A stretch of DNA of 64,000 nucleotides from Vibrio atlanticus (GTDB taxonomy: Bacteria; Pseudomonadota; Gammaproteobacteria; Enterobacterales; Vibrionaceae): contig NZ_AP025460.1 of NCBI RefSeq assembly GCF_024347315.1, positions 1,922,001 to 1,986,000 on the forward strand, written 5' to 3'. Every line of letters starts with the position of its first letter. Position 1 is the stretch's first letter. The notes under the pieces were generated by a model, which saw only the letters and a program-made list of their open reading frames with translations, was not told the origin of the DNA and did no database searches. Both the position numbers and the translations under genes were made by a program. Positions 45,605-64,000 of the stretch are shown one piece after another.

Positions 45605-45888
45605 TGAGTGTCACGATAACTTGGGTTTAAAGACCTCTAGATCATTATCGGCACTGATCGAGTCCTGTCCATTGCTACTGAGCCAGTGCCACCCAGTTTT
45701 CGCGCCTACGCCATTGAGTTAAGCGCTTGGTTCAACGTTTATTTACCTGTCTTGGTTGCGCCAGCATTGTGAGATGCCCTAGGTCTCATTGTCGTGAATT
45801 CGGTTTTCGATAGCCCGAAATTTCCTTTATTTTCAAAGCTGTTTTGTTATATTCATGTGAAACATTACTAATATAAGAAATGGCTTAA

Positions 45889-46942: not shown

Positions 46943-46975
46943 AAGGCCTCGCACACGCGAGGCCTTAATTTTATC
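46943..46975 (+). terminator. terminator hairpin, copy 1 of a dispersed family
   Basis: Stem AAGGCCTCGC (46943-46952) and GCGAGGCCTT (46957-46966), loop ACAC, then AATTTTATC. Nearly the same hairpin recurs at 51384, 53895 and 61062, with diverged forms at 62295 and 63063. Confidence 0.9.
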
Positions 46976-47053
46976 CATCAATAAACGCCCCTCTCTTTCA
47001 TCGATAACATACATATTGAAAGTGTTTGCTCTACTAGGCGTAACGGCCCCCCG

Positions 47054-51284: not shown

Positions 51285-51383
51285 CAAACACAGGAAAAAA
51301 GTAACGCAACTTCGGTCTAAGCTTCTTCTAAATGTCGTACTATTCCAAGTTGCTGCCCCATTACTTAATTGCCCGAAAAGCAA

Positions 51384-51412
51384 AAGGCCTCGCACACACG
51401 AGGCCTTAGTTT
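51384..51412. terminator. terminator hairpin, copy 2 of the family
   Basis: AAGGCCTCG / CGAGGCCTT stem, loop CACACA, then AGTTTTATC. It lies between the acetyltransferase gene and the convergent hydrolase gene. Confidence 0.88.
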
Positions 51413-51530
51413 TATCTATCGAAAGGTTGTCCCCCGACTCCACCAACTTAGCCGCTTTCATCAACTTTTCATTAAACTGCTTTGGTTGCTCTAGCATATG
51501 GACATAGCCTGAACCTTCAACGTAGCTAGT
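51413..51530 (-). pseudogene. relic of an alpha/beta-hydrolase 3' end (copy A)
   Basis: On the minus strand this reads as about 35 residues including YVEGSGYVHMLEQPKQFNEK, the usual C-terminal tail of an alpha/beta hydrolase (GHFPMLEQPE-type). It begins directly at the end of the secreted hydrolase gene in another frame and has no start of its own. A hairpin of the dispersed family follows. Confidence 0.65.
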
Positions 51531-51532
51531 AA

Positions 51533-53056
51533 TCAATGGCCTTGACAGAGATTAGTAGGATGAAAACTTTGAAAAGGTACTGCATAACGTGCCGACACAT
51601 CATAGCGTCCAGACAAATGCTGAGTGACTAAATACTGACGTTGCTCCTCATTATAAAAGTGTTGTGTTGCTTCTAGTTCAATAGCATCTCCATCCCCAGC
51701 ACAAATGAAATAGTCGTCGTCCATATCTCGAAATGCTATTGGGGTTTCATCTACCAATCCATATCTATCGGTCATCTTTCTTGACCTCCAAATATCTTTA
51801 AATGTACCTAGCTCAAAGCGTTTTAAATTTCGCCATTGTACGAACATATAAGTGTCTTGCGAGGGAATCGATGGAATGTCATTCATTGCCTCGTTCGGGC
51901 TTTTACAAGTATCAAACAAAACCACAGCATTGTTCTCAACTCTAAATGGCAATCTATCTTCATCTTGTATATAAGAATCCACGTTCCTTTTGAACCAAGA
52001 ATCACCCTCTGGGCTGAGATAGAAAGAAGGAGACTTTAGGTAAGACCCAAATTCGTCAGTTTTACTTGCGTCAACAATTTCATAAACAGGATTATCATGA
52101 AGTGAGTCATAGCTCGCACTATAATCGAACTCAATTTTAAACAAAAAATCTTCCATCTCGGGTTTAGTAAGAGACGTGAAAGCTTTATCGACCGACGCTT
52201 TGATTTTCTCAATGGATTTGGGGTGAGTGAGGTAAATAGGAATGAGTCCGTGTCCAGTAATGTCTAATTTACTCGGTGCTATCGTGGTGTTGGGAGGCGG
52301 AACACTGCCTATCCCTGTAAAGTTAAGCAAATTAATCACAAGGTCTGAGGCCGATAAAATATAATCACTGTCTGGGCTAAGGGTTGGGGAAGCGGGAGCG
52401 ATGTGAACAACGTGAATGTTATCGGCACTGTAACCGTATTGGGACGTAACATGCTTATATGATTCGTTTACCCATAAGTTCCCTTGTGAATGAGCGATGT
52501 AAATGAGCTTTTTTCCTTTCCACGTAAGAGAGTCATTTAAAAGATGATGCTGCATTCTAGTCTGGCTAGTTTCGGGGGCATCAACAAGTGAAGCTAATTC
52601 TTTTAAAAATGTCGTGATAGTTGCATTGATGGTTTGGTTTGTGAAGTCGAGAACAAACCCAGCAAACCAAACAAAAGTAGCGCTGATTTTTTGGATGATA
52701 GCGCTGTTTTGCCTACCGCTTACGATGTCCCCAAAGGCCTCCCACCGGTCGAATTGTTTCTGCTCTAACTCGGAAGTTCTTTGGTCAAAGGTTTCAGCAA
52801 AATCAGCCAGTACGTTAAGGCCACTTCCTTCAATATAAGAATCGTTATAGAAAAGCTGGTATTCGACAGACTCACTTTTGTATTGGCTGATACCTAGAGT
52901 GGCTTTGATCTTCTTTTGTCCCCTTTTAGCTTGTTCTTTGGTTGTTGCTACCCCATTAAAAAAGGCGATAGTGTAACCTTCTATTTTGCATGAGTTAGCG
53001 ATTGCATTGAATGGCAGTAAAACCACTAATATGAGTAATATTGTTTGCCTATTCAC
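51533..53056 (-). CDS. secreted serine hydrolase (lipase-like), unrecognised family
   Basis: A 507-residue protein with a signal peptide (about 1-20, ending AIA). The nucleophile elbow is IAHSQGN near residue 197, with HSQG in a strand-turn-helix context (YIAHSQGNLWVNES); a late histidine in DITGHGLIPIYL could complete the triad. The C-terminal 200 residues match nothing I know. It starts with GTG (GAGGAAAAA upstream), overlapping the lipoprotein gene by 8 bp, so the two are coupled. A secreted lipase or a toxin with the lipoprotein as partner are options. Confidence 0.75.
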   Translation of the reverse strand: MNRQTILLILVVLLPFNAIANSCKIEGYTIAFFNGVATTKEQAKRGQKKIKATLGISQYKSESVEYQLFYNDSYIEGSGLNVLADFAETFDQRTSELEQKQFDRWEAFGDIVSGRQNSAIIQKISATFVWFAGFVLDFTNQTINATITTFLKELASLVDAPETSQTRMQHHLLNDSLTWKGKKLIYIAHSQGNLWVNESYKHVTSQYGYSADNIHVVHIAPASPTLSPDSDYILSASDLVINLLNFTGIGSVPPPNTTIAPSKLDITGHGLIPIYLTHPKSIEKIKASVDKAFTSLTKPEMEDFLFKIEFDYSASYDSLHDNPVYEIVDASKTDEFGSYLKSPSFYLSPEGDSWFKRNVDSYIQDEDRLPFRVENNAVVLFDTCKSPNEAMNDIPSIPSQDTYMFVQWRNLKRFELGTFKDIWRSRKMTDRYGLVDETPIAFRDMDDDYFICAGDGDAIELEATQHFYNEEQRQYLVTQHLSGRYDVSARYAVPFQSFHPTNLCQGH

Positions 53057-53648
53057 AATATTTTTCCTCAGCAGGAAGGAGTGTACTTACAGATCCATCT
53101 TGTAAATGATTATAAGCTAAGTACGCCATAGTACGAGCTTTGGTGTTGTAGGTGAGAGATGTGATTGTGTTGGAGGTGTTTATGCCGTCATCAATATCAA
53201 TTCCTACAAACTCTTCACAGGCGAGGACTTCGTCGTACTTGTATGAAATTTCGAGGGCTTTTTTGATGTTAGCATGGGTCTTCTGTGAAAAATCGTGATA
53301 GAGATTTTCTTGTGTGTAACGGGCGTTTTGTTTTAAGGCTTTTCGGACTGGCTCGGTCACTTCTAGCGCATCAATAAACGCCTCAATGTCATCGCGGATA
53401 CCATCATTGTTTGCATCCGTACCAGTAAGAGAGTCGCTGCGGTCAAGCATGGGTTCAAAACGCTCATATAGAAGCCTAAGTTGATCATCAATTGTTTCTT
53501 GTGCCTTTAATTCCGCGACTAGCTCAGGTGTTTTCTCTATGTGAGAGATGACACTCGGTTGTTCCACTACAGCAGCGTTTGGCTCATTCGATTCTTTGCA
53601 CCCCACGATTATCATCACGGCTAATGCGCAGACTAACCCATTTTTCAT
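53049..53648 (-). CDS. small lipoprotein, unknown
   Basis: A 199-residue lipoprotein. The lipobox IIVGC puts the lipidated cysteine at residue 17. The body is acidic and helical; a DANNDGIRDDIEAFID stretch (about 79-94) looks like a calcium-binding dockerin or EF-hand-type loop. Ribosome site GGGGATACAG. The stop overlaps the start of the hydrolase gene, which suggests a working pair (chaperone, immunity or activator). I recognise no family. Confidence 0.72.
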   Translation of the reverse strand: MKNGLVCALAVMIIVGCKESNEPNAAVVEQPSVISHIEKTPELVAELKAQETIDDQLRLLYERFEPMLDRSDSLTGTDANNDGIRDDIEAFIDALEVTEPVRKALKQNARYTQENLYHDFSQKTHANIKKALEISYKYDEVLACEEFVGIDIDDGINTSNTITSLTYNTKARTMAYLAYNHLQDGSVSTLLPAEEKYCE

Positions 53649-53998
53649 TTCTGTATCCCCTAGTATTTCAAATAGTTACCAGAGAATACGGACAAATTAA
53701 CTCACTGAATAATAAAGAGTTTGCATAGGGACATAACAAACAAAAATAGAAAGTTAGATGTTGTTACCCTCCGCCTTTTCTGTGTTTCAAAAAAGGCGGA
53801 AAATATCAATGAAGGGGGAGATTTGAACGGGGGTTGGCAGTATATTATCACGAGCTTCTGGCCAAGTTATTTCGCTCGCTAAACAACACATAAAAAAGGC
53901 CTCGCACACGCGAGGCCTTAGTTTTATCTACAGAGCAGCTTATTCGCAACCAATTATTCAATTAACCAATCAACCGCTCCAAACCCACTGAATAATAT
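53649..53998. other. intergenic with hairpins
   Basis: A 350-bp spacer. A 10-bp inverted repeat (TCCGCCTTTT at 53770-53779, AAAAGGCGGA at 53791-53800) has no T-run on either strand and is unexplained. A family terminator hairpin lies at 53895-53918. No gene was seen. Confidence 0.6.
53895..53920 (-). terminator. terminator hairpin, copy 3 of the family
   Basis: AAGGCCTCGC / GCGAGGCCTT, loop ACAC. The minus strand continues TTTTTTATG, so it serves the 112-residue protein gene. Confidence 0.9.
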
Positions 53999-54337
53999 TC
54001 AGTCCATTCGGGTAATGAAGGTTTGTTCGTCATCGACAAAAGCCACATAGTCGCCGTGATAAATAAACACTCGACCTCGCCCTTCAACGATACACGCAAG
54101 CTGTGGGTTCAAATCTTCGTCAAGATTTTCACTTTGATACGTGCCGGTATCGGTGATCACACCGCGGAGTTTAGGTAAAAATCCATAGCTGCGCTTGGCT
54201 TGATCAATCAGGCTCAATTCACTGGCGGTCGAGAAGTAAGATGGGATTGGACCTGCATCTTCGATAAACATAGTTTTCAGTTCTTCAAAAGCTGTAATCA
54301 CCAGCCAGTCGATGCCGTTAACGTGATGGATAAACAT
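53999..54337 (-). CDS. 112-residue protein, unrecognised
   Basis: A small soluble protein (MFIHHVNGIDWL start; FIYHGDYVAFVDDEQTF near the end). The segments LACIVEGRGRVFIYHGD suggest a small beta-rich fold. No motif or family is known to me. It has its own terminator and is divergent from the pterin genes. It looks like a real coding region by composition and position. Confidence 0.6.
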   Translation of the reverse strand: MFIHHVNGIDWLVITAFEELKTMFIEDAGPIPSYFSTASELSLIDQAKRSYGFLPKLRGVITDTGTYQSENLDEDLNPQLACIVEGRGRVFIYHGDYVAFVDDEQTFITRMD

Positions 54338-54506
54338 TGTTTATAAATACCTAGATTCTCGATAATTCTGATGCGGGGATTCTATCACTATCAGAGGCGA
54401 TTTGCGGCAGAACCCTATTTTCTTTTATCTTCCTGTTTTTAATAGGATGCATGGCTGATCTTCATCGCGAATTGGACGTATAGGCTCCTTAAAAGGAAGG
54501 ATAACT

Positions 54507-55004
54507 ATGGCCTACGTCTACGTCAGCATCGGAAGCAACATTAACCGCGAACACCACGTCACAGAATCTCTCAAAGCATTGAATGACCGCTTTGCACCGC
54601 TGCACATTTCTAATTTCTACGATTGCGAGCCTGTCGGTTTCGAAGGGGATAACTTCCTAAACCTTGTCGTTGGGTTTCAATGTAACCTCCCTGTCGCAGA
54701 GTTGGTTCAGGTTCTACATCAAATCGAAGCAGAGAATGATCGCAAGCGTCAGACCAAAGCCTATGCTTCACGCACGATGGATATCGACATCCTTCTTTAT
54801 GGTAATCAAGTGGGCGTTATCGATGGCGTAGAACTGCCTAGAGGTGAAATCACCGAGTACGCTTTTGTACTAAGACCGTTAGTCGATGTTGCCGCGCAAG
54901 AACGTCACCCCACTCTAGACATCTCATATCAACAGCTCTGGGAAAGCTTCGATCAGTTAAGTCAGAAAACCGAACCCATCCCGTTCGAGCTCAGTTTCAC
55001 TTAG
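54507..55004 (+). CDS. folK: hydroxymethyldihydropterin pyrophosphokinase
   Basis: A 165-residue HPPK. The start VYVSIGSNINRE and the signature RTMDIDILLYG (Mg/ATP site) are clear. The enzyme transfers pyrophosphate from ATP to 6-hydroxymethyl-7,8-dihydropterin in folate synthesis. This copy lies before a folX-folE-folM run rather than beside pcnB, so it may be a second copy tied to pterin metabolism. A strong ribosome site (AAAAGGAAGG) precedes it; folX starts 127 bp later. Confidence 0.88.
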   Translation: MAYVYVSIGSNINREHHVTESLKALNDRFAPLHISNFYDCEPVGFEGDNFLNLVVGFQCNLPVAELVQVLHQIEAENDRKRQTKAYASRTMDIDILLYGNQVGVIDGVELPRGEITEYAFVLRPLVDVAAQERHPTLDISYQQLWESFDQLSQKTEPIPFELSFT

Positions 55005-55131
55005 CCTTTCCATGACTGAAAAAAGAACGGCTGCAATAGGAACAACTGAACTTTTAATAACCTGAGATTTACTGATCTTTTCTTAAAACAAGCACGTAAC
55101 TGACTTCACTTTCTAAGGATTGGACACTGTT

Positions 55132-55509
55132 ATGAATCACAACGCCATTATCACCATTACAAACCTCAGACTAAGAACCTTCATCGGCTTCAACGAAGAA
55201 GAAAAGTCCAAGCAGCAAGACATTGTTATCAACGCAGAAATCCACTACCCCGCTAACAACCTTTGCCTCTCTGATGATGTGGACAACGCGCTTAACTACA
55301 AAAACATCTGCAAGAAGATCATTCAACATGTCGAATCCGGAAGGTTTCTGCTTTTGGAAAAGCTAACCAGTGACGTTCTCGGCATTTGTATCGACCATCC
55401 ATGGGTGAAATACGCTCAAGTGAGAATCGACAAGCCTCATGCGCTACGTTTTGCTGACTCTGTTTCGCTCACTCTGAGCTATGAAGCAGACAACGACAAT
55501 AATTCATAA
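55132..55509 (+). CDS. folX: dihydroneopterin triphosphate 2'-epimerase
   Basis: A 125-residue protein close to E. coli Fol[25 protein letters not shown], then [26 protein letters not shown] and [18 protein letters not shown]. It converts dihydroneopterin triphosphate to dihydromonapterin triphosphate. The ATG at 55132 gives the FolX-like N-terminus; a TTG four codons upstream is less likely. Next is folE, with a stop-to-start gap of 10 bp. Part of a tetrahydromonapterin unit. Confidence 0.92.
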
Positions 55510-55519
55510 GGAGTGCGTC

Positions 55520-56158
55520 ATGCTGAACACAGAAGCCGAAAAAGTAAGAGAAGCTTTGCTCGCAAGAGGACTTGAAACTCCAATGACACCGAGCGAAATG
55601 AATCCCAACCAGAAGTACAACCGCATCAAAGGACTGTTGACGGAAGTGGTCAGTACGCTTGGACTGGATTTAACCGATGACAGCCTTGCTGAAACACCTC
55701 ATCGCATTGCAAAGATGTACGTCCATGAGATATTTTCAGGGCTCGATTACGATAACTTCCCGAAAATCAGTGTTATAGAAAACAAAATGTCGGTTGATGA
55801 AATGGTCAAGGTATCGGATATCGATTTAACGTCGACGTGCGAACACCACTTCATTACCATCGATGGTTTAGCGGAAGTGGCTTATATACCTGAAAACAAG
55901 ATTCTTGGGCTGTCTAAAATAAACCGTATCGTTCGATTCTTTGCTCAGCGTCCTCAGGTACAAGAACGCCTTACTCAGCAAATCCTAGTCGCGATACAGA
56001 CTCTAGTAGAGACAGAAAACGTGGCCGTGACGATTAAAGCCACGCACTATTGCGTTAAATCCAGAGGCGTCATGGATGCAAACTCTGAAACCTCAACAAC
56101 CGCTCTCGGTGGTATTTTCAAAACTAACCCTCAAACCAGAGCTGAGTTTTTACGATGA
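55520..56158 (+). CDS. folE: GTP cyclohydrolase I
   Basis: A 212-residue enzyme that makes dihydroneopterin triphosphate from GTP. The zinc site CEHH ([12 protein letters not shown]) and the histidine and cysteine of [12 protein letters not shown] are present. The length fits type I. The ATG at 55520 has AAGGAG upstream; an earlier in-frame start overlaps folX and is unlikely. Its stop overlaps the folM start by 4 bp. It is probably a second copy beside a main folE elsewhere. Confidence 0.95.
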
Positions 56159-56871
56159 GTGAAACGATATTAATAACCGGCGTGGGAAAGCGACTCGGCT
56201 TCGCACTGGCGCAGCAACTTTTAGCGGATGGATTCAAAGTGGTTGGCACTTATCGCAACGACTATCCTCAATTGCAACTGTTGCGCGACAGTGGAGCCGA
56301 CTTGCAGCATGTAGACTTTTATCAGCAAAGTAGTCTAGAGAGTTTTCTTCACTATGTTGGTCAAGAATATAAGACACTCCGAGCCATCATACATAACGCT
56401 TCCGACTGGAAACCTGAGAACAAAAACAATCCTAGTGACAATGCGTCACACATCATGCACCAGATGATGACGATTCACGCTACCGTGCCTTATCTGTTCA
56501 ACTTAACACTCAAAGACCAATTGATGTCTGGCGATAAAACCTCAGACATCATCCACATCAGTGACTACGTTGCAGAAAAAGGCAGTAAAAAACACATCGC
56601 TTACGCGGCCAGTAAAGCGGCGCTCAACAACCTAACGCTATCGTTTTCAGCGATGCTGGCTCCCAAGGTCAAAGTAAATACCCTCTCTCCAGCCATGATT
56701 AAGTTTAATGAGCATGACGATGAGGCATACAAGACCAAAGCGCTGCAGAAAGCTCTGATTCCCACAGAAGCGGGCTTTGAGGAAATAATAGATGGCATCA
56801 AGTTTGTGTTGGCCAGTCACTACATGACAGGAAGAACTTTGCACCTTGATGGCGGCAGACATTTGAAGTAA
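56155..56871 (+). CDS. folM: dihydromonapterin reductase
   Basis: A 238-residue short-chain dehydrogenase. The NADP loop is [18 protein letters not shown] (TGxxxRLG, the FolM/PTR1-type form with arginine), followed by [11 protein letters not shown] with catalytic Tyr/Lys. It reduces dihydromonapterin to tetrahydromonapterin, the cofactor used by phenylalanine hydroxylase in Pseudomonas and similar bacteria. It is coupled to folE by a 4-bp overlap. No phhA gene is in the window. Confidence 0.93.
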
Positions 56872-56959
56872 TGCGCTTACATTGTCTGCTACCTAAAACT
56901 GCTGCTATATAGCGAATGCGGTTAACTAGAAACCGTTATAAGCTAGAAACTGCTATGAC

Positions 56960-57316
56960 CTAGAAACTAGTATAATACTGAGGAAGGCGAGTCTCTTCAT
57001 CCCAGCCTAACAACTCAATATTGATCAATGACTTGCGCTTCTCATTACACAGTGAAGCGAGATTGATGATAGGGAGCTGGCTACGAAACTGCGCGGTGAG
57101 GATGACCTTTTTATTTTCACTCAGGCAGTCTCGGCATTGCACCACAATCGCTTCAGTATCTAGCTGGTGTGCGTTCTCGATAATCTTAATAACAGCGTTC
57201 TCTTGATAGCACTCTATCAGCCAAGATACGGCAGCCACTTCTGAGCTGGTAAGCACGATGACATCTTTTGTTGCCATAAGCTCGTGGAGTTCAAGCTCTT
57301 TTAGTTCAGTTTCCAT
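56960..57316 (-). CDS. 118-residue protein, unrecognised
   Basis: A soluble protein beginning METELKELELHELMATKDVIVLTSS. The start at 57316 has TGAGAG upstream; one 12 bp earlier is possible. The sequence alternates helices and strands (IVVQCRDC, KVILTAQFRSQLPIINLA) like a small alpha/beta fold. No known family. It follows the patatin gene on the same strand (27-bp gap), so they may be co-transcribed. Confidence 0.6.
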   Translation of the reverse strand: METELKELELHELMATKDVIVLTSSEVAAVSWLIECYQENAVIKIIENAHQLDTEAIVVQCRDCLSENKKVILTAQFRSQLPIINLASLCNEKRKSLINIELLGWDEETRLPQYYTSF

Positions 57317-57343
57317 AAATACTCTCATTCAGCAGCAAATACA

Positions 57344-58216
57344 TTAAAGTCGATTGCCCAGTTTAGCCTGTGCCAAATGGTAGCCTCTGTCTATCATCTC
57401 TTGTGAACGATCAAACTCTAAGGTGCCACAAGCATTGCGTGGGATCTCAAGCGTAATATCGGCGGGATAAGCGGCCAATTTTTGGCGAGCAATGGTCGAT
57501 TGCATCGCATCAAACGCTTGGTTGGCAATGTCGTAGGCTGCAAAGTTAAAGCTCATTTTACTTTTTACACTGCTACCGAGATTATCGATAAAGTGAACAA
57601 CCTTCTCATGCAAATTGCTCTCTTTGGTAGGTAGGGAAACCGGTATCACTTCCTGTTGAAGCATCTCAGGTTCACCACCTAAGTTCACAGCCAGAGTAAA
57701 GTCTGTCTTATCACTAAAGGTAGGCGCAATCGGTACGGGATTGAGCACTCCGCCATCAATCAGCACTTCGCCATTAATCACATGAGGCGTGAAGAACAGT
57801 GGTAAAGAGATAGAGGCGCGAATGGCGTCAAACAGAGAACCGGATTGCAGCCAAACCTCTTTTTCATCGGCGACGTTAGCGGCAACCGCGGTATAAGGGA
57901 TAGGCAGATCTTCAATTGAAATCTCACCGATCAATCCACGCAGTGTGTCGATGATCTTGTCCCCTTTGAAGATACCACTCGATTGCCATGAAAAATCCAA
58001 CATCATCGCCATATCCGATTGGTCGATACTGGTGACCCACTCTTCAAATTCATCCAACTTACCCGCCGCATAGACACCACCGATAAGTGCGCCAATTGAA
58101 CAACCAGAGATAGATTTTATCTGATAGCCATGCTCAATTAACCAACGGATTATTCCAACGTGAACCAAGCCTCTTGCGCCACCACTGCCAAGTACCAATG
58201 AGACCGTTTTTTCCAT
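57344..58216 (-). CDS. patatin-like phospholipase (RssA-like)
   Basis: A 290-residue hydrolase of the patatin family. The oxyanion motif GSGGARG (near residue 10) and the nucleophile GCSIG lie in the first 45 residues, and the catalytic aspartate is in DGGVLNPVP near residue 155. The start at 58216 has AAAGG at 9 bp; an ATG three codons upstream lies too close to that site. Such proteins cleave acyl chains from phospholipids; E. coli RssA is the nearest relative I know. The target is unknown. Confidence 0.88.
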   Translation of the reverse strand: MEKTVSLVLGSGGARGLVHVGIIRWLIEHGYQIKSISGCSIGALIGGVYAAGKLDEFEEWVTSIDQSDMAMMLDFSWQSSGIFKGDKIIDTLRGLIGEISIEDLPIPYTAVAANVADEKEVWLQSGSLFDAIRASISLPLFFTPHVINGEVLIDGGVLNPVPIAPTFSDKTDFTLAVNLGGEPEMLQQEVIPVSLPTKESNLHEKVVHFIDNLGSSVKSKMSFNFAAYDIANQAFDAMQSTIARQKLAAYPADITLEIPRNACGTLEFDRSQEMIDRGYHLAQAKLGNRL

Positions 58217-58550
58217 CGTACTCATCCTTTAATTCATTAGCTCTTCAAAGCTTTGGGCAAAAATTATATCACTTCGTGTCAGTGTAAGCTGTGTAATGCT
58301 TTGAAAACTGCACCACCTGCGTGCCTAAATGTGTCTCGGATTGAGATCGGGCAGCTTAAGTTGATTGCTGAAACTCATAGACTTTAGACTACCGAACTAA
58401 ACTAAAAGTGAGTCATTCCAGCAAGCCTAAGCGCGACTAGGAATCTGCTTTCCGTTAGCGCTTGATACAAAAAAGTCGCCCACTTGAAAGCGAGCGACCT
58501 CTTGTTGTTCATTGTGTTTTTGAGCTCATTCTGTAAGTGAGAACAAAGAA
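58217..58550. other. intergenic between patatin gene and 184-residue protein gene
   Basis: About 330 bp. The part near 58472-58500 is a terminator for the upstream minus-strand gene; the rest holds the patatin promoter. No small gene was seen. Confidence 0.5.
58471..58500 (-). terminator. intrinsic terminator of the 184-residue protein gene
   Basis: GTCGC / GCGAC outer stem with a broken inner stem; the minus strand continues TTTTTTG. Confidence 0.65.
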
Positions 58551-59105
58551 TTACAACACGCGTAAGCACTCTTCTGGCGACAAGCTCAAGAGCGTATTGG
58601 CGAAGTTGATCTTCTCATCGCGCCATCTCAATGCTGCCTCTCGACCTTCTTGTGAGTGTCGGTCGGCCTCAAAATAGCTTTTTCTTGGAAGCCCGTCTGC
58701 TGGCGTCATCACCATAGACTGTTCATTCAAGCGAAGCGTAAACAAGAACTGACCACGTTGTCCGGTTTGCGCTGCTGGGTGATGCAATGTGGTATCACAG
58801 CAATAGCGCCTATCACGCAGTGCGCGGCATGTGTACTCAAAAGCATCTTGAGCACCACGTCCAGGGAACGCGGTATAAACACTGATGCCATCACGTTGCA
58901 AAGACTGCTCACCCGCCGCGAGTTGCACCGCATGTTGGATCATCCTAAAGCCCAGAACCACGCCACCAATGCTGTTCAATCCACTGTATTGAATTGCGCC
59001 TTCTAAGCTCAGATGAAGTTTGTCTTCCCCTTCATAGAGAAAGAGATCAGGCGATGCCCAATCGCTCTTTGGAATAAGCAGTTGAGTAATATCCGAGTGT
59101 TCCAT
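58551..59105 (-). CDS. 184-residue protein, unrecognised
   Basis: A soluble protein starting MEHSDITQLLIPKSDWAS. The ATG at 59105 has GGAG 7 bp upstream; in-frame codons farther out are not preferred. The centre has GLNSIGGVVLGFRMIQHAVQLA and GISVYTAFPGRGAQDAFEYTCRA; the end is rich in charged residues. It looks conserved and structured, but I know no family for it. It is divergent from the DUF3360 permease gene. Confidence 0.65.
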   Translation of the reverse strand: MEHSDITQLLIPKSDWASPDLFLYEGEDKLHLSLEGAIQYSGLNSIGGVVLGFRMIQHAVQLAAGEQSLQRDGISVYTAFPGRGAQDAFEYTCRALRDRRYCCDTTLHHPAAQTGQRGQFLFTLRLNEQSMVMTPADGLPRKSYFEADRHSQEGREAALRWRDEKINFANTLLSLSPEECLRVL

Positions 59106-59517
59106 GTTGGTCTCCGCAACAATGAGTGTGTTTGAGCCCACAAGGTAACGTAATGAGAATTATTATCAATAGTTTTTAACCAAAAACGTTACCCCAGAAA
59201 CCACTCATCGATGGATGCTATCTGATGCTTTAACGCCAAGCATTTCTTGTTAGATATTCATTTATTACCAATAAAGCTCATCGCCTACAAATAAACAGAC
59301 ACATACTATCTACAGGGTCTAATACTAGTCGTCCGACTCTACGACTAATGTCTAACCGACTGAGTCTATTTGTTTTTTTTGGTTTGGTATAAGGTACTAA
59401 CAACTAAATGTTAATGAATTTTTAATGATAAGTTGACGCATTGTTTTCACTTCATGCCGTGAGTCAACAACGTTTGTTGGAATAACACACCTCAGAGTGT
59501 GAACGAAAGGAATCAAA
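59106..59517. other. intergenic, leader of the DUF3360 permease gene
   Basis: About 410 bp holding divergent promoters. A hairpin TAGTCG / CGACTA (59325-59347) lies near the centre, followed by an AT-rich tract with T8. The DUF3360 gene seems to have a long 5' leader. No small gene was seen. Confidence 0.45.
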
Positions 59518-61026
59518 ATGAGCACTACTTTAGAGTCCGCACATATACAAACAGAGAAGCCTCAAGTCCATGAGGATGAACTCACCTATGAACAACAACA
59601 CAAACCAAGCTCGGAATTTGATTCCCGAGAACAGTATTTAGAGCACGAGTTACAAATCATGGCGCCTAAACGTTGGCGTCCCAATTTGCCGTTTAAAGAT
59701 TATCGATTTGAAATAGAAGACACCATCCCAGCGATGGCGGCGACCATTGGCAAGATTGTTATGGTGGGTGCCATTGCAGCCACCTTTGCCGGGGCGCTAG
59801 GGCTAAATGAAGGCTTTATTTTAGAAAACGTTCGTTATGAACTGCTCATCGCCTCTGTTTTCATCATTCTTTTCTCTGGCTTTCTATTGCCGACCGCGAA
59901 CCTTGCAGGTACACACGGCCCACTCATTCCATTAATTCCGATTGTGGTTGCAGCTGGCGGACACCCTATGGCGTTTGGCCTGTTAATTGGCGCTTTTGGT
60001 TTACTCTTAGCCATCAGTAAAGGTGGCAGCATGTTGGCCAACCTTACCAGTAAAGGCGTGTGTGGCGGTTTACTGCTCTACCTCGGCTTTGTTGGCACCG
60101 CCTCTCAAGTTAAGAAGCTGTTCGCTTGGGCTGACGGAATTGGCATGAGCCATATCGCTTTTGTCGTGATCTTCTGCACCATCATTTTGTACGCGTTATT
60201 GGAACATTTCCGTAAGCGTTGGTTAGCCGTCCCTCTTAGCTGCTTGCTGGGTGGTACGTTAGCGTTTGCCATGGGCGCGCCGTTTTCTTTTCAAACCGAG
60301 CCAGGTTTACCCAACATGAACCCTATGTATTGGTGGGGAGAAGATACAGGTTGGATGTTAGGTCTACCGACGATTGAACACTTCATGGTGGTATTGCCGT
60401 TTGCGATTTTAGCCGTAGCGATGTGGTCACCAGATTTCTTAGGGCATCAAGTATTCCAGAAGATCAGCTACCCAGAACGTACCGAAAAAGTACACATGAA
60501 CATTGACGATACCATGACCACAGCTTCAATTCGCCAAACGTTCGGTTCTCTGCTCGGTGGTACTAACTTTACGTCTTCATGGGGTACTTATATCGTACCG
60601 GCGGCGATTGCTAAACGCCCTATTCCTGCTGGTGCATTGCTTACAGCTCTGTTCTGTATCATCGCCGCAGTTTGGGGTTACCCGATGGATTTAGCTATCT
60701 GGCAACCGGTACTGTGTGTCGCGCTGATTGTTGGAGTATTTGTGCCATTGCTAGAAGCTGGAATGGAAATGACGCGTGAAGGGAAAACCACCCAGTCGGC
60801 CGCGATTGTTGTGTTTTCTTCAGCACTGGTTAACCCTGCATTTGGTTGGGCTCTCACCATGCTGTTAGATAACTTAGGCTTAGTCGGTTGTAAAGAACGT
60901 AGTAGTGAGCTTAGTAAAATGAGCCGTTGGGTGTTGCCTGGAACGATGTTTATTGTGCTAACTGGTGTGATGGCGTTGGTTGGCCTTCTACCGGGGATTC
61001 CGGCGATTATCCCGAGTTTTCGTTAA
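59518..61026 (+). CDS. DUF3360 family permease
   Basis: A 502-residue inner-membrane protein with about twelve helices after an acidic N-terminal region of about 60 residues (HELQIMAPKRWRPNLPFKDYRFE). I recall DUF3360 as a Vibrio-type family distantly related to SulP/NCS2 permeases; motifs such as TANLAGTHGPLIPLIPIVVAAGG and GGTNFTSSWGTYIVPA fit. The substrate is unknown. AAAGGAATCAAA precedes the ATG. A family hairpin terminator follows. Confidence 0.82.
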   Translation: MSTTLESAHIQTEKPQVHEDELTYEQQHKPSSEFDSREQYLEHELQIMAPKRWRPNLPFKDYRFEIEDTIPAMAATIGKIVMVGAIAATFAGALGLNEGFILENVRYELLIASVFIILFSGFLLPTANLAGTHGPLIPLIPIVVAAGGHPMAFGLLIGAFGLLLAISKGGSMLANLTSKGVCGGLLLYLGFVGTASQVKKLFAWADGIGMSHIAFVVIFCTIILYALLEHFRKRWLAVPLSCLLGGTLAFAMGAPFSFQTEPGLPNMNPMYWWGEDTGWMLGLPTIEHFMVVLPFAILAVAMWSPDFLGHQVFQKISYPERTEKVHMNIDDTMTTASIRQTFGSLLGGTNFTSSWGTYIVPAAIAKRPIPAGALLTALFCIIAAVWGYPMDLAIWQPVLCVALIVGVFVPLLEAGMEMTREGKTTQSAAIVVFSSALVNPAFGWALTMLLDNLGLVGCKERSSELSKMSRWVLPGTMFIVLTGVMALVGLLPGIPAIIPSFR

Positions 61027-61061
61027 GCTCGATTAATATTGAGTTTTAGTCGGAACACAAA

Positions 61062-61092
61062 AAGGCCTCGCACACGCGAGGCCTTGTTTTAT
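61062..61092. terminator. terminator hairpin, copy 4 of the family
   Basis: AAGGCCTCGC (61062-61071) / GCGAGGCCTT (61076-61085), loop ACAC, then GTTTTATC; the minus strand continues TTTTTGTG. It serves the permease and the convergent hydrolase genes. Confidence 0.9.
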
Positions 61093-61141
61093 CTAAGTAT
61101 CAACGAGCGAACAGCGAAGAAATTTACGATGGTAAACCAAA

Positions 61142-62068
61142 TCAACTAGAGAGCCATTCATCCAGTACTTTGATGAATTTAGGGTTGATGAGATAACCGA
61201 TGGAAGCGTGCGGATTGCTTTTTCCGTTTCGAATATTGAGGTTATAAACTGGGTAGATGTCTTTCATTCCGCCGGGTATCAGATCCAGTTTGAGCATATC
61301 TTTAAAGTCATTTCTAATTTTGCTGTCATGAGAGATAAAATCATCTTCTGCCGATATGTTTATCCATTGCTGAATGTTTAAAGGGTACTTCTTCTCATCT
61401 TTCAAGCGACTCCCTTTTAGCCTATCTTTTACGTTTTCATCTCCTAACGGCGACCCGAGCGTCAGCAATAAGTTGACCTTCTTGTCCGCACCATAGTCGT
61501 GTCTATACTCTCCGTAATGAGACAGCTTCCACAACACGTCATAACTGATCATCGACCCGAGACTGTGCGACACAATCATCACATCATCTTGATTATCGAG
61601 CGCTTCCTTCAGTTCAACCATTATCCTTTGCCTAACATCGCTGCCGAAATAGGTATCTTCATACCAATAATGTGCCATATCTGGCGCGACCTTGGTTATA
61701 AGTGTCTCAGCCACACCCAGCTTTCCAAATAGCGATGAAAAGGTATCTGCTAGCGCCTCTTTTAGAAAACCAATTTTAGATACCTTGTTATACGTTGTTT
61801 TATTGAATTGGCTTGTCTTGTACTTTTTGAGTTCAGACAGCGCTTGTTGTCGACTTGCAGGGTCTTCCGTTGGTTTCTCTAACAATGTGTTTGATAGTTC
61901 TCCGTAATAGACAAACCGTTTATCGACATCTTTAAAAGCTTGTAATGAACCTGAGTCTTCACAATCTCGCTGTAAGCCATGTTCTATAGCCTCGTACCAA
62001 AGTGCTTGAAGGGGAGCTTTATCGGGCTTTTGAGCGCGACCATGAATGAATATTATTTTCTTAGCCAT
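61142..62068 (-). CDS. cytosolic alpha/beta hydrolase
   Basis: A 308-residue hydrolase. It opens with MAKKIIFIHGRAQKP, whose HG is the oxyanion motif, and the nucleophile Ser169 is in VSHSLGS; a late region LLTLGSPLGDENV carries the usual GSP segment. Likely aspartate and histidine partners lie in the last third (NISAEDDFISHD; NPHASIGYL). The ATG at 62068 is preferred to an upstream TTG. It lies between hairpin copies 4 and 5 in the mosaic part of the window. The substrate is unknown. Confidence 0.8.
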   Translation of the reverse strand: MAKKIIFIHGRAQKPDKAPLQALWYEAIEHGLQRDCEDSGSLQAFKDVDKRFVYYGELSNTLLEKPTEDPASRQQALSELKKYKTSQFNKTTYNKVSKIGFLKEALADTFSSLFGKLGVAETLITKVAPDMAHYWYEDTYFGSDVRQRIMVELKEALDNQDDVMIVSHSLGSMISYDVLWKLSHYGEYRHDYGADKKVNLLLTLGSPLGDENVKDRLKGSRLKDEKKYPLNIQQWINISAEDDFISHDSKIRNDFKDMLKLDLIPGGMKDIYPVYNLNIRNGKSNPHASIGYLINPKFIKVLDEWLSS

Positions 62069-62292
62069 AGCAGCACGTCCTAAACACATAGTTAAAGTGA
62101 TTATCAGTAGAAAGTACCTACCAGATTCGGTCAACCCTTACTAAGAACAGCAGCGTTAATGACGTATCTAGAGGTGGTTGATAGATCATTTATATAACTA
62201 TGAGGCACAAGTTTAAGGACCATAAACGAGTGAAAAATACGATCATTACTCGCAAATTAGGAATGAATGTAGCTAGCAAAACCTCCAATTAA

Positions 62293-62510
62293 CAAAAGGT
62301 CCTGTACACGCAAGGCCTTTGTTATATCTTCTAAGGGTTACCACTATCCTTTGACAGCTATAGCGCCCTACCTTACTGACTTAACCGCTTTCATCAACGT
62401 TGTATTGAGCGGTTCTGGTTGATCTAGTATTGGGAAGTGGCTGAATCTTCGATGTAGTAAAGGCGGTAGTCCTTGATATGCTTCTTGTTTGCTTCTGTTA
62501 CAGTTAACGT
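62293..62510 (-). pseudogene. relic of an alpha/beta-hydrolase 3' end (copy B) with decayed hairpin
   Basis: The minus strand reads KDYRLYYIEDS and, after a single missing base, HFPILDQPEPLNTTLMKAV then KSVR and a stop. This is the same C-terminal tail as copies A and C but longer upstream. A diverged hairpin (AAAGG / CCTTT arms, about 62294-62320) follows the stop. It is frameshifted and has no start. Confidence 0.7.
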
Positions 62511-62575
62511 TAAATTTTTCTTGCTAAAAAGGTAGAAAAGTTTATAGTATTTTTTAGATGAAGTTGAGAATCGAT

Positions 62576-62833
62576 ATGTCATTACAGAAGAAGCAACCTA
62601 AAGTATCACTGAACATTAAAATCTCTTCAGACTTGGATGCTCGCCTTAAACTAGCGAGAAAAGCAGCGCGTGAACAAGGGCTAATGTTCAATGTATCTCA
62701 AGAAGTTGAAAAGTTTCTTGAGAAGGAAATAAAGAAAGTGGAACGCCAGCTATCAATCGATGAAGCGATTAAGAATAATCTCGAGGAACTTGGTGGGCTT
62801 AATATAGATAAAATAATGAAATCAATGGATTAA
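62576..62833 (+). CDS. 85-residue RHH-like protein
   Basis: A small charged protein starting MSLQKKQPKVSLNIKISSDLDARLK. A beta-strand (KVSLNIKIS) followed by two helices resembles a ribbon-helix-helix DNA-binding domain, and the rest is a coiled-coil helix (FLEKEIKKVERQL) plus an acidic tail. The start at 62576 has TTGAGAA upstream; one six codons earlier lacks a site. It could be an antitoxin or small regulator. Its next neighbour is a 40-residue membrane peptide. Confidence 0.65.
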   Translation: MSLQKKQPKVSLNIKISSDLDARLKLARKAAREQGLMFNVSQEVEKFLEKEIKKVERQLSIDEAIKNNLEELGGLNIDKIMKSMD

Positions 62834-62898
62834 TCATAATACCGACATGTATTGATTCACTTTTGAATGACGAACGATAACTAATTTTGGAGATAATT

Positions 62899-63021
62899 AT
62901 GGGCACAATAATTGGACTGTTAATTTTGGCTGGTATCAGTGTATTCCTAAAGCGCCAAACGGGACTTCATTTGCATGAGTGGATTGCAAAGAAATATAAA
63001 GACTCTCAAGACAAAAAGTAA
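62899..63021 (+). CDS. 40-residue small membrane peptide
   Basis: A short ORF with a hydrophobic N-terminus (MGTIIGLLILAGISVFL) and a polar tail (KKYKDSQDKK). A strong ribosome site TTGGAGATAATT lies before the ATG, 65 bp after the RHH-like gene, and a perfect 12-bp-stem terminator follows. It may be a toxin-like membrane peptide or a small regulator of the region; there is no family match. Confidence 0.6.
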   Translation: MGTIIGLLILAGISVFLKRQTGLHLHEWIAKKYKDSQDKK

Positions 63022-63062
63022 TGGACTCTATCAGATTGACAGGCTCCATCGATTTAACTTAA

Positions 63063-63098
63063 AAAACTAAGGCCCCGCAATCTCGAGGCCTTAGTTTT
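63063..63098. terminator. bidirectional terminator, diverged copy of the hairpin family
   Basis: AAAACTAAGGCC (63063-63074) / GGCCTTAGTTTT (63087-63098), a perfect 12-bp stem with a 12-nt loop. It terminates the small membrane peptide gene and abuts relic copy C. Confidence 0.9.
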
Positions 63099-63225
63099 AT
63101 CTATAGAATGATTACAACCGCCTTACTTCACTGATTTCACCGCTTCCATCAAGGTTGCGTTGAACAGCTGTGATTGCTCTAGCATTGGGAAGTGGCCTTA
63201 TTTGCAATGTAGTAAATGCTGTAAT
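63099..63225 (-). pseudogene. relic of an alpha/beta-hydrolase 3' end (copy C)
   Basis: The minus strand reads GHFPMLEQSQLFNATLMEAV then KSVK and a stop, with in-frame stops just upstream. The same gene tail as copies A and B. The rest of the spacer to 63337 is AT-rich with no gene. Confidence 0.7.
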
Positions 63226-63337
63226 CTTAGATGTATTTTTATATCGAACAATCTCATCCTGATTTGACGGCTGTTCAGGATTATAAACAACTCCTAAGTT
63301 AAAATGCAGAAACGCTAATTAAGAAGTAAGGCAAAAA

Positions 63338-64000
63338 ATGTCACGCAAAAAATTTATGGAATCCTACGGTGCAACGAACCGAAATGCACGGTATGGGTGG
63401 GCTTTTGTTAATCACGAAAAAAAAGAAGTTTATTTTGGTGCGTGGGACGTCAATACAAACCGAGAAAGATCGTTGATTTTTTCTATGGACTGGGAGTTCA
63501 ACAACGACGGACGTAGAGTTAATGCGTTTGGCGAAGCTCTCGAGTACATCAAGTTGGTTGAAAACGAAGGATATTCATTAAGAACATTTCCAATAATCTG
63601 GGATGAAGATAACGACAGTTATTTAGACACAGGCAGTGCCAAGATAAAAGAGTACATAGAAGAAGTCTCTGAGATGTCCCTTGAGGTAATTAGCAGCAAT
63701 TACTATGCGATTGGAAAGCATAACGTAAAGTATTCAAAAATGCCTTCACCCAACGTAGCACAAGACGTCAACATAATATTCGGTACTACCATCAATAAGA
63801 CAGAACGTGAAAGTCTAGTTCTCTCGCGTATTGGGCAGGGGCGATTTAGACAAAACGTTATCAGCTCATGGGGGAATGGTGAGTGCTGTGCGCTAACGCT
63901 TACAAGCGTACGCGAGATTTTAATTGCATCTCACATAGTGCCTTGGTCCAAATGTGAAAGTGATGAACAGAGACTTGATGGCGCAAATGGCATACTGCTT
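63338..64000 (+). CDS. HNH endonuclease, truncated by the window end
   Basis: An open frame of 221 codons that runs off the right edge. The start MSRKKFMESYGATNRN has AAGG upstream. The N-terminal part (YGWAFVNHEKKEVYFGAWDV) is a small unrecognised domain. The C-terminal part has RIGQGRFRQNVISSWGNGECC and then LIASHIVPWSKC...DGANGILL, the pattern of HNH restriction endonucleases of the COG3440 type. It is probably a modification-dependent or standalone restriction enzyme. The end of the HNH motif is outside the window. Confidence 0.82.
   Translation, partial: MSRKKFMESYGATNRNARYGWAFVNHEKKEVYFGAWDVNTNRERSLIFSMDWEFNNDGRRVNAFGEALEYIKLVENEGYSLRTFPIIWDEDNDSYLDTGSAKIKEYIEEVSEMSLEVISSNYYAIGKHNVKYSKMPSPNVAQDVNIIFGTTINKTERESLVLSRIGQGRFRQNVISSWGNGECCALTLTSVREILIASHIVPWSKCESDEQRLDGANGILL

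Follow-up and report, generated by a model that had tools for sequence, protein, structure and literature searches.

A 64,000-nucleotide (nt) stretch of the Vibrio atlanticus genome (contig NZ_AP025460.1, here C1, positions 1,922,001 to 1,986,000) was analyzed for repeated 3' ends, or tails, of an alpha/beta-hydrolase gene, each of which runs into a hairpin. The whole stretch is referred to as the window, and positions are counted from its first letter. The tails are probably scars of repeated insertion at gene tails that were later reshuffled by homologous recombination. What was observed directly is that tail fragments are present, that relatives carry the parent gene, that some sites are filled and others empty, that the pheT tail is duplicated too, that a 91-amino-acid (aa) gene module and an HNH endonuclease module have the same joints in different species, and that a terminator is the common joint.

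The tails were located by blast, the queries being hydrolase tails of five relatives (Table 1). The original prediction, made from the letters alone, had named three tails of one alpha/beta-hydrolase gene (A, B and C), each with a hairpin of one family, and the blast and hairpin searches agreed on this. It had also let each tail end in KSV and a stop, which was the case in tail B (KSVR-stop) and tail C (KSVK-stop) only; tail A reads KLVESG, has no stop at the old place, and continues through the hairpin. Tails B and C are both frameshifted as predicted: B changes frame upstream of its KSVR-stop, and C has an upstream frame change together with stops. An older, weak relic at the left of the array has a counterpart in a related locus (L059), where a tail relic lies between the same two genes. 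As a control, the tails of 74 mechanically called open reading frames (ORFs) of at least 100 aa were searched in an 82-kb region. Any second match was found for 7 of the 74, and all of these matches were 22-53 nt long and began in the last 8 coding nt or downstream; therefore, none of the control ORFs had a duplicated coding tail.

The parent gene, which the original prediction had suggested seeking intact in Vibrio genomes, encodes a 290-aa alpha/beta hydrolase (PF00561, E 4.5e-22). It was matched at E 1e-60 or better in 34 of 227 genomes of the genus, with at least 92% identity in 30 of those 34, and named carriers include V. fortis, V. chagasii, V. lentus, V. splendidus, and V. profundi. 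Tail DNA was matched in 30 of 148 genus genomes, V. atlanticus included; among the matches listed, at least 11 genomes had at least three tail matches, some of them of the hairpin only. For mapping, 26 Vibrio loci were used: the locus of the window, 20 taken for a tail match, and 5 out of 18 named loci (the other named loci were 6 duplicates of mapped places, the 6 loci L078-L082 and L084, and 1 short contig). One genome per species was compared throughout, and all filled and empty sites and arrangements are accordingly differences between species. The parent gene was present in 24 of the 26 mapped loci, a count to be read knowing that 25 of the 26 had been chosen for a tail or hydrolase match. 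Three of the 24 copies are damaged, with an in-frame stop in L068 and L077 and an early end in L065. The two exceptions are V. atlanticus (tail from nt 795) and L067 (tail from nt 576). In V. atlanticus, no hydrolase was matched at E 1e-60 and no working copy was found; besides the tails, the genome gave only distant hydrolases (26-29% identity), and a helicase/DarT-like/ADP-ribosylglycohydrolase gene set occupies the place of approximately the first 794 nt of the hydrolase. In 18 full-length loci compared with L050, the hydrolase match starts 89-94 nt 5' of the start codon.

Over the 14-21 kb examined, neither pheT nor tails were present beside the homologues of Photobacterium, Shewanella, and Vibrio sp. 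Of7-15 (L078-L082, L084). In three of them (L080, Photobacterium; L081, Vibrio; L082, Shewanella), the hydrolase gene lies 3' of a GNAT-like gene, and approximately 30 nt matching positions -89 to -59 of the Vibrio gene are found upstream of this row; in L080 and L082, the row also contains a 395-aa regulator-like gene (by eye).

In the mapped loci, pheT was in view in 17 of 26, and in all of these the hydrolase or its stump lies 3' of pheT, in the order pheT, terminator, variable cargo, hydrolase or stump, terminator, and modules. Downstream of the modules, a 502-aa DUF3360 gene (PF11840) was found in 20 of 26 loci, a patatin gene in 19, and a GTP-cyclohydrolase gene in 10, several of the stretches being cut short. 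Displaced 3' fragments of the hydrolase lie downstream of new modules in the same orientation, as in an array formed by displacement, and 5' fragments lie left of or inside the cargo in L062, L058, and L054, as a mirror of the 3' tails. Whole-gene cassettes between the two conserved genes vary by species, and the module order inside the interval shifts too. An arrangement fixed in all relatives, which the original prediction had set down as evidence against itself, was not found: arrangements differ, and empty sites exist.

Empty and filled sites were compared between genomes of different species that are approximately 90-94% identical at the site (L066 was left out). With L059, L062, and L064, L056 forms one uninterrupted alignment of 2245-2283 nt, from the hydrolase through a 315-aa gene. 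Against L053, it aligns in two pieces around the HNH gene (approximately 1.1 kb) that overlap by 181 nt of L056, and against L054 in two pieces around a 317-aa gene (approximately 1.3 kb) that overlap by 220 nt. When L059 was used as the empty reference, the overlaps were 196 nt (L053) and 240 nt (L054). The stretch duplicated at filled sites, 181-240 nt long, is the hydrolase tail plus terminator, and its left copy ends 5-6 nt past the hairpin in both L053 and L054. The empty site thus has one copy and the filled site two long direct copies, the pattern of a long target duplication. The module edges in these comparisons are compatible with one homologous and one non-homologous edge per event. 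The recurring 3' end with its terminator and the empty and filled sites support repeated insertion at a gene tail, as had been predicted.

The tail of pheT is duplicated in a similar way, which counts in favour of repeated insertion. In L055, the last 122 nt of pheT plus the terminator are repeated (97.7%) beyond a 263-aa gene, and in L061 the last 86 nt plus the terminator are present twice (second copy 92%). L064, where pheT itself is out of view, has a truncated pheT-tail copy (from -116). The terminator stretch is present twice in L058 (96%), and L067 has a weak pheT-tail copy (77%) much further right. The scar is therefore not peculiar to the hydrolase.

The tails could also be passengers without a role, if whole intervals were replaced through flanking homology as in a minimal mobile element. 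Interval content does vary by genome, pheT and the DUF3360/patatin side recur, and, in excerpts of PMC3082526, the content beside pheS/pheT is strain-variable in Neisseria. Single modules, however, differ one by one with tail duplication, and module edges lie at terminators, which makes replacement of whole intervals an unlikely sole explanation.

The joints between cargo and tail were recorded for each module type. The 89-91-aa module was found in 9 of the 26 loci and is followed directly by a tail in 7 of them, from nt 735-743 (743 in the window); in L057 and L058 no tail follows it. In six genomes compared base by base (V. atlanticus and five others), its cargo aligns up to the tail joint, and the alignment runs across both edges. 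The left edge coincides with the right half of the hairpin and is preceded by at least two different tail alleles; the left neighbour varies (hydrolase, HNH, p311, p637, or MFS395). The HNH joint lies at nt 757 in both carriers (tail C and L053), and the p311 joint at nt 738 in both carriers. The unit at 62.3-63.2 kb, which had been predicted to be a small cassette, holds this recurrent module. Its 91-aa gene, for which no Pfam or PADLOC match was found, and its 40-aa frame, which is 95-97.5% identical in the 8 other mapped loci that have the 91-aa gene, are perhaps a toxin-antitoxin-like or small regulatory pair.

At attachment sites, elements classically insert at the 3' end of a gene and rebuild its tail. 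If the hydrolase 3' end were such a site, site-specific integration followed by loss of the integrase would leave the cargo and the displaced tails, as the original prediction had allowed. Some joints do cluster (89-91-aa module at 735-739, with 743 in the window; p311 at 738; one lipo317 joint at 736), but further ones lie at 576, 629, 714, 757, 772-802, 831-836, and 859-863. Hydrolase joints thus range from nt 576 to 863, with no single fixed crossover, and breakpoints differ between modules. The pheT tail, moreover, is duplicated as well. No Phage_integrase, Resolvase, rve, or DDE_Tnp_1 match was found in C1:1,922,001-2,004,000 (82 kb; other families were not searched), a region that includes the ground just beyond 64 kb where an integrase or transposase had been suggested; the closest match to a tyrosine integrase lies at C1:1,917,384. 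Site-specific integration at the hydrolase tail is therefore very unlikely.

Genome-wide, the same search gave 26 Phage_integrase, 3 Resolvase, 10 rve, and 66 DDE_Tnp_1 matches. Many of the DDE_Tnp_1 matches are equal in score, and none is in the 82 kb around the locus. Six 296-aa tyrosine recombinase frames of similar score (C1:1917384 and 2122060; C2:15205, 1223258, 1226047, and 1228961), three of them in a row on C2, are perhaps a recombinase-type insertion element. No Pfam match was obtained for two frames in L055 and L056 that resemble insertion sequences by eye.

The second route named in the original prediction was serial duplication of a tail-terminator unit, here taken as local to one lineage and succeeded by decay. 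The copies of the coding tail share one orientation and one neighbourhood, as such duplication would leave them, but their 5' breakpoints and cargo differ, and the same cargo-tail joints are found in other species in other orders. The V. atlanticus tails are also nearer to the parent-gene tails of relatives (78-90% identical) than to each other (64-74%), a difference that decay alone could explain. Because the 91-aa and HNH modules share their joints in other species, serial duplication within V. atlanticus is needless, and it is held to be highly improbable.

In the shuffled array past the hydrolase, modules are linked either by a displaced tail or by the terminator alone. The exact palindrome has 7 copies genome-wide, 6 of which lie within 21.4 kb at this locus (binomial P 5e-12 for a 48-kb region chosen after the copies had been seen); the seventh is 3' of a gene resembling metE (by eye). 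Exact hairpins that lack a tail stand at 46943, 53896, 61062, and, past the window, 68289. A looser form was found at 15 genomic places, 6 of them at this locus. In the 26 loci, 77 hairpins of 24 nt with a common core and a partly conserved loop were compared in pairs. Where the flanks were unrelated (2739 and 2447 of the 2926 pairs), identity is at background by approximately +9 nt and approximately -12 to -16 nt. The common joint is a block of approximately 40 bp centred on the hairpin. An Rfam gathering-score search of the window gave 0 matches and did not support a known RNA family. It is conceivable, if doubtful, that crossovers in an integrase-free cassette system occur preferentially in this block, where the palindrome would draw breaks and strand exchange or an unlinked recombinase would recognise the hairpin. 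In that case, the hydrolase or pheT tail with its terminator would act in the role of attC and feed the defence hotspot beside pheT.

Two repeats downstream of tails were noted. The repeat CCCCTCCTAACCTCCCC, first read as part of the unit, was set aside since it is missing after many tails. A second repeat, CCCCTCCTAACCTCCCCTTGG ... GAGGGGGAG, follows some tails (L049 6000-6200, L051 10020-10200, and others; pheT strand left to right).

For insertion followed by reshuffling, the course of events would be as follows. The starting point is a hydrolase gene that lies, together with its own terminator, 3' of pheT in a set of Vibrio species. Arriving modules would repeatedly have pushed out or truncated resident genes, leaving the 3' end and the terminator behind. 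While related DNA was being taken up, illegitimate insertion anchored on one side by homology may have formed the first joints. Ordinary homologous recombination between the scattered tail-terminator repeats could later have excised, inserted, and swapped modules.

Several findings weigh against this course. The tail-to-tail identities fit independent insertion and decay of one old copy alike, and were for this reason set aside as proof of independent insertion. In L065, other genes extend over at least 7 kb left of the hydrolase and pheT was not seen; that pheT was in view in only 17 of the 26 loci counts slightly in the same direction. MFS395 joints are spread over nt 772-802 in 4 of 7 carriers, the hydrolase tail being absent in the other 3, and the joints of lipo317 (714 and 736) and p609 (744 and 778) differ as well; these varying joints may be in part an alignment edge and in part independent joining. 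Among L051, L052, and L064, the 89-aa gene is 97.8-99.3% and the DUF3360 gene 89.9-91.7% identical, which hints at transfer between some species. Higher identity of the 89-aa gene is not seen in other pairs (89-94% for V. atlanticus), and pheT is also approximately 97% identical, so constraint on the 89-aa gene is possible. Tails are less identical than cargo, which lack of constraint could explain, and sliding identity across the 89-aa module was set aside as proof of a tail crossover because constraint is unequal.

Table 1. Features of the tail-terminator array (window positions; values above 64,000 lie past the window)
Feature	Position	Strand	Description
Weak old tail relic	45705-45799	-	hydrolase nt 778-874, 72% identity, E 1e-7; no hairpin
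Terminator joint	46943-46978	-	outermost exact copy of the cluster; no tail
Tail A	51381-51525	-	hydrolase nt 783-930 and terminator, best E 7e-36; adjoins 199-aa and 507-aa genes
507-aa gene, tail-A module	51533-53056	-	no Pfam match
199-aa gene, tail-A module	53049-53648	-	no Pfam match
Terminator joint	53896-53934	-	after 112-aa gene; no tail; left edge of 199/507-aa insertion
Terminator joint	61062-61095	-	between 330-aa gene and 502-aa DUF3360 gene; no tail
Module gene, 315-330 aa	61142-62134	-	lipase-like motif HSLGS by eye; no Pfam match
Tail B	62306-62497	-	hydrolase nt 743-934 and decayed hairpin, E 2e-54; right end of two-gene small module
91-aa gene, small module	62558-62833	+	ribbon-helix-helix-like by eye; related gene in 8 other mapped loci, 2 partial
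40-aa reading frame, small module	62899-63021	+	membrane-like by eye
Tail C	63069-63238	-	hydrolase nt 757-926 and terminator, E 1e-57; right end of HNH module
HNH endonuclease module	63338-64000, ends 64237 past window	+	299 aa; also in L053
Fourth tail, past window	64272-64405	-	hydrolase nt 795-929, E 1e-25
Exact hairpin, past window	68289		no tail

The 199-aa and 507-aa genes were found in V. atlanticus only, among the 26 mapped loci. The interval beside pheT was surveyed for defence genes: 56 proteins were listed left of the hydrolase in 20 loci, and 20 proteins from 13 loci were run against PADLOC. A match below 1e-20 was obtained in 10 of the 13 loci (raw count), each with a different best family (NsnB-like ATPase, AbiO/Nhi, DRT3, PARIS AriA/AriB, retron II-A, retron III-A, Dsr1, Gabija, Hachiman, and HerA); of the other three, one had a match at 2e-19 and two had weak matches only. 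With pheT in view in 12 of the 13 loci (the exception being L064), differing anti-phage systems occupy one site across loci, as in a defence hotspot. The slot in V. atlanticus holds a UvrD-like helicase, a DarT-like protein (PF14487, E 2.6e-16), and an ADP-ribosylglycohydrolase (PF03747, E 3e-31), whose genes stand in a row at L016 1448-5091 (window 64448-68091). Since no PADLOC match was found for the ADP-ribosylglycohydrolase, the row may be a little-described DarTG-like arrangement.

Among the papers listed in an open-licence library, none appeared to describe this locus. In the V. cholerae type VI secretion system (T6SS), effector modules undergo sequential displacement, for which homology-facilitated illegitimate recombination has been proposed (Kirchberger 2017, PMC5361080). 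As in those arrays, a new module enters, the resident 3' end is shifted downstream, and the array grows, with no integrase known in the excerpted account; unlike in them, the displaced gene is the hydrolase (or the pheT tail) and not the cargo, the cargo is varied, and the terminator block is the common joint. Restriction-modification genes insert with long variable target duplication (Nobusato 2000 as cited in PMC3031569), and here too cargo lies between long direct target repeats of variable length, but the modules stand in series at one target, few are nuclease-like, and they share the same terminator end. The minimal mobile element, defined with a pheS/pheT example in PMC3082526, likewise has variable cassettes beside pheT and is recombination-driven by definition, whereas the internal repeats at this locus would allow single modules to change. 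In Pseudomonas aeruginosa, the core defence hotspot cDHS1 lies at pheS/pheT (PMC10250203); anti-phage systems gather beside pheT in both cases, with the difference that in Vibrio the hydrolase gene forms a boundary that is followed by a module array. In the excerpt of PMC12137116, pheS is a selection marker.

Vibrio chromosomal integrons are arrays of small cassettes with a repeated joint, and the locus resembles them in both respects. It differs in having no integrase match beside the array and a joint made of a gene tail and a terminator. An integron was rejected on the missing Phage_integrase match in the 82 kb and the lack of attC boxes at the hairpins by eye (no attC model was run).

The locus combines displacement with the behaviour of a minimal mobile element and is new in having a gene tail plus terminator as the repeated joint. 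In vibrios, as in Pseudomonas and Neisseria, the interval beside pheT is a place to seek new anti-phage systems. How small integrase-free modules and defence systems come together at certain chromosomal sites is an open question. Here the scars can be counted, the joint is defined, and filled and empty sites are available from many related species, so that the process can be read from sequence and is directly testable.

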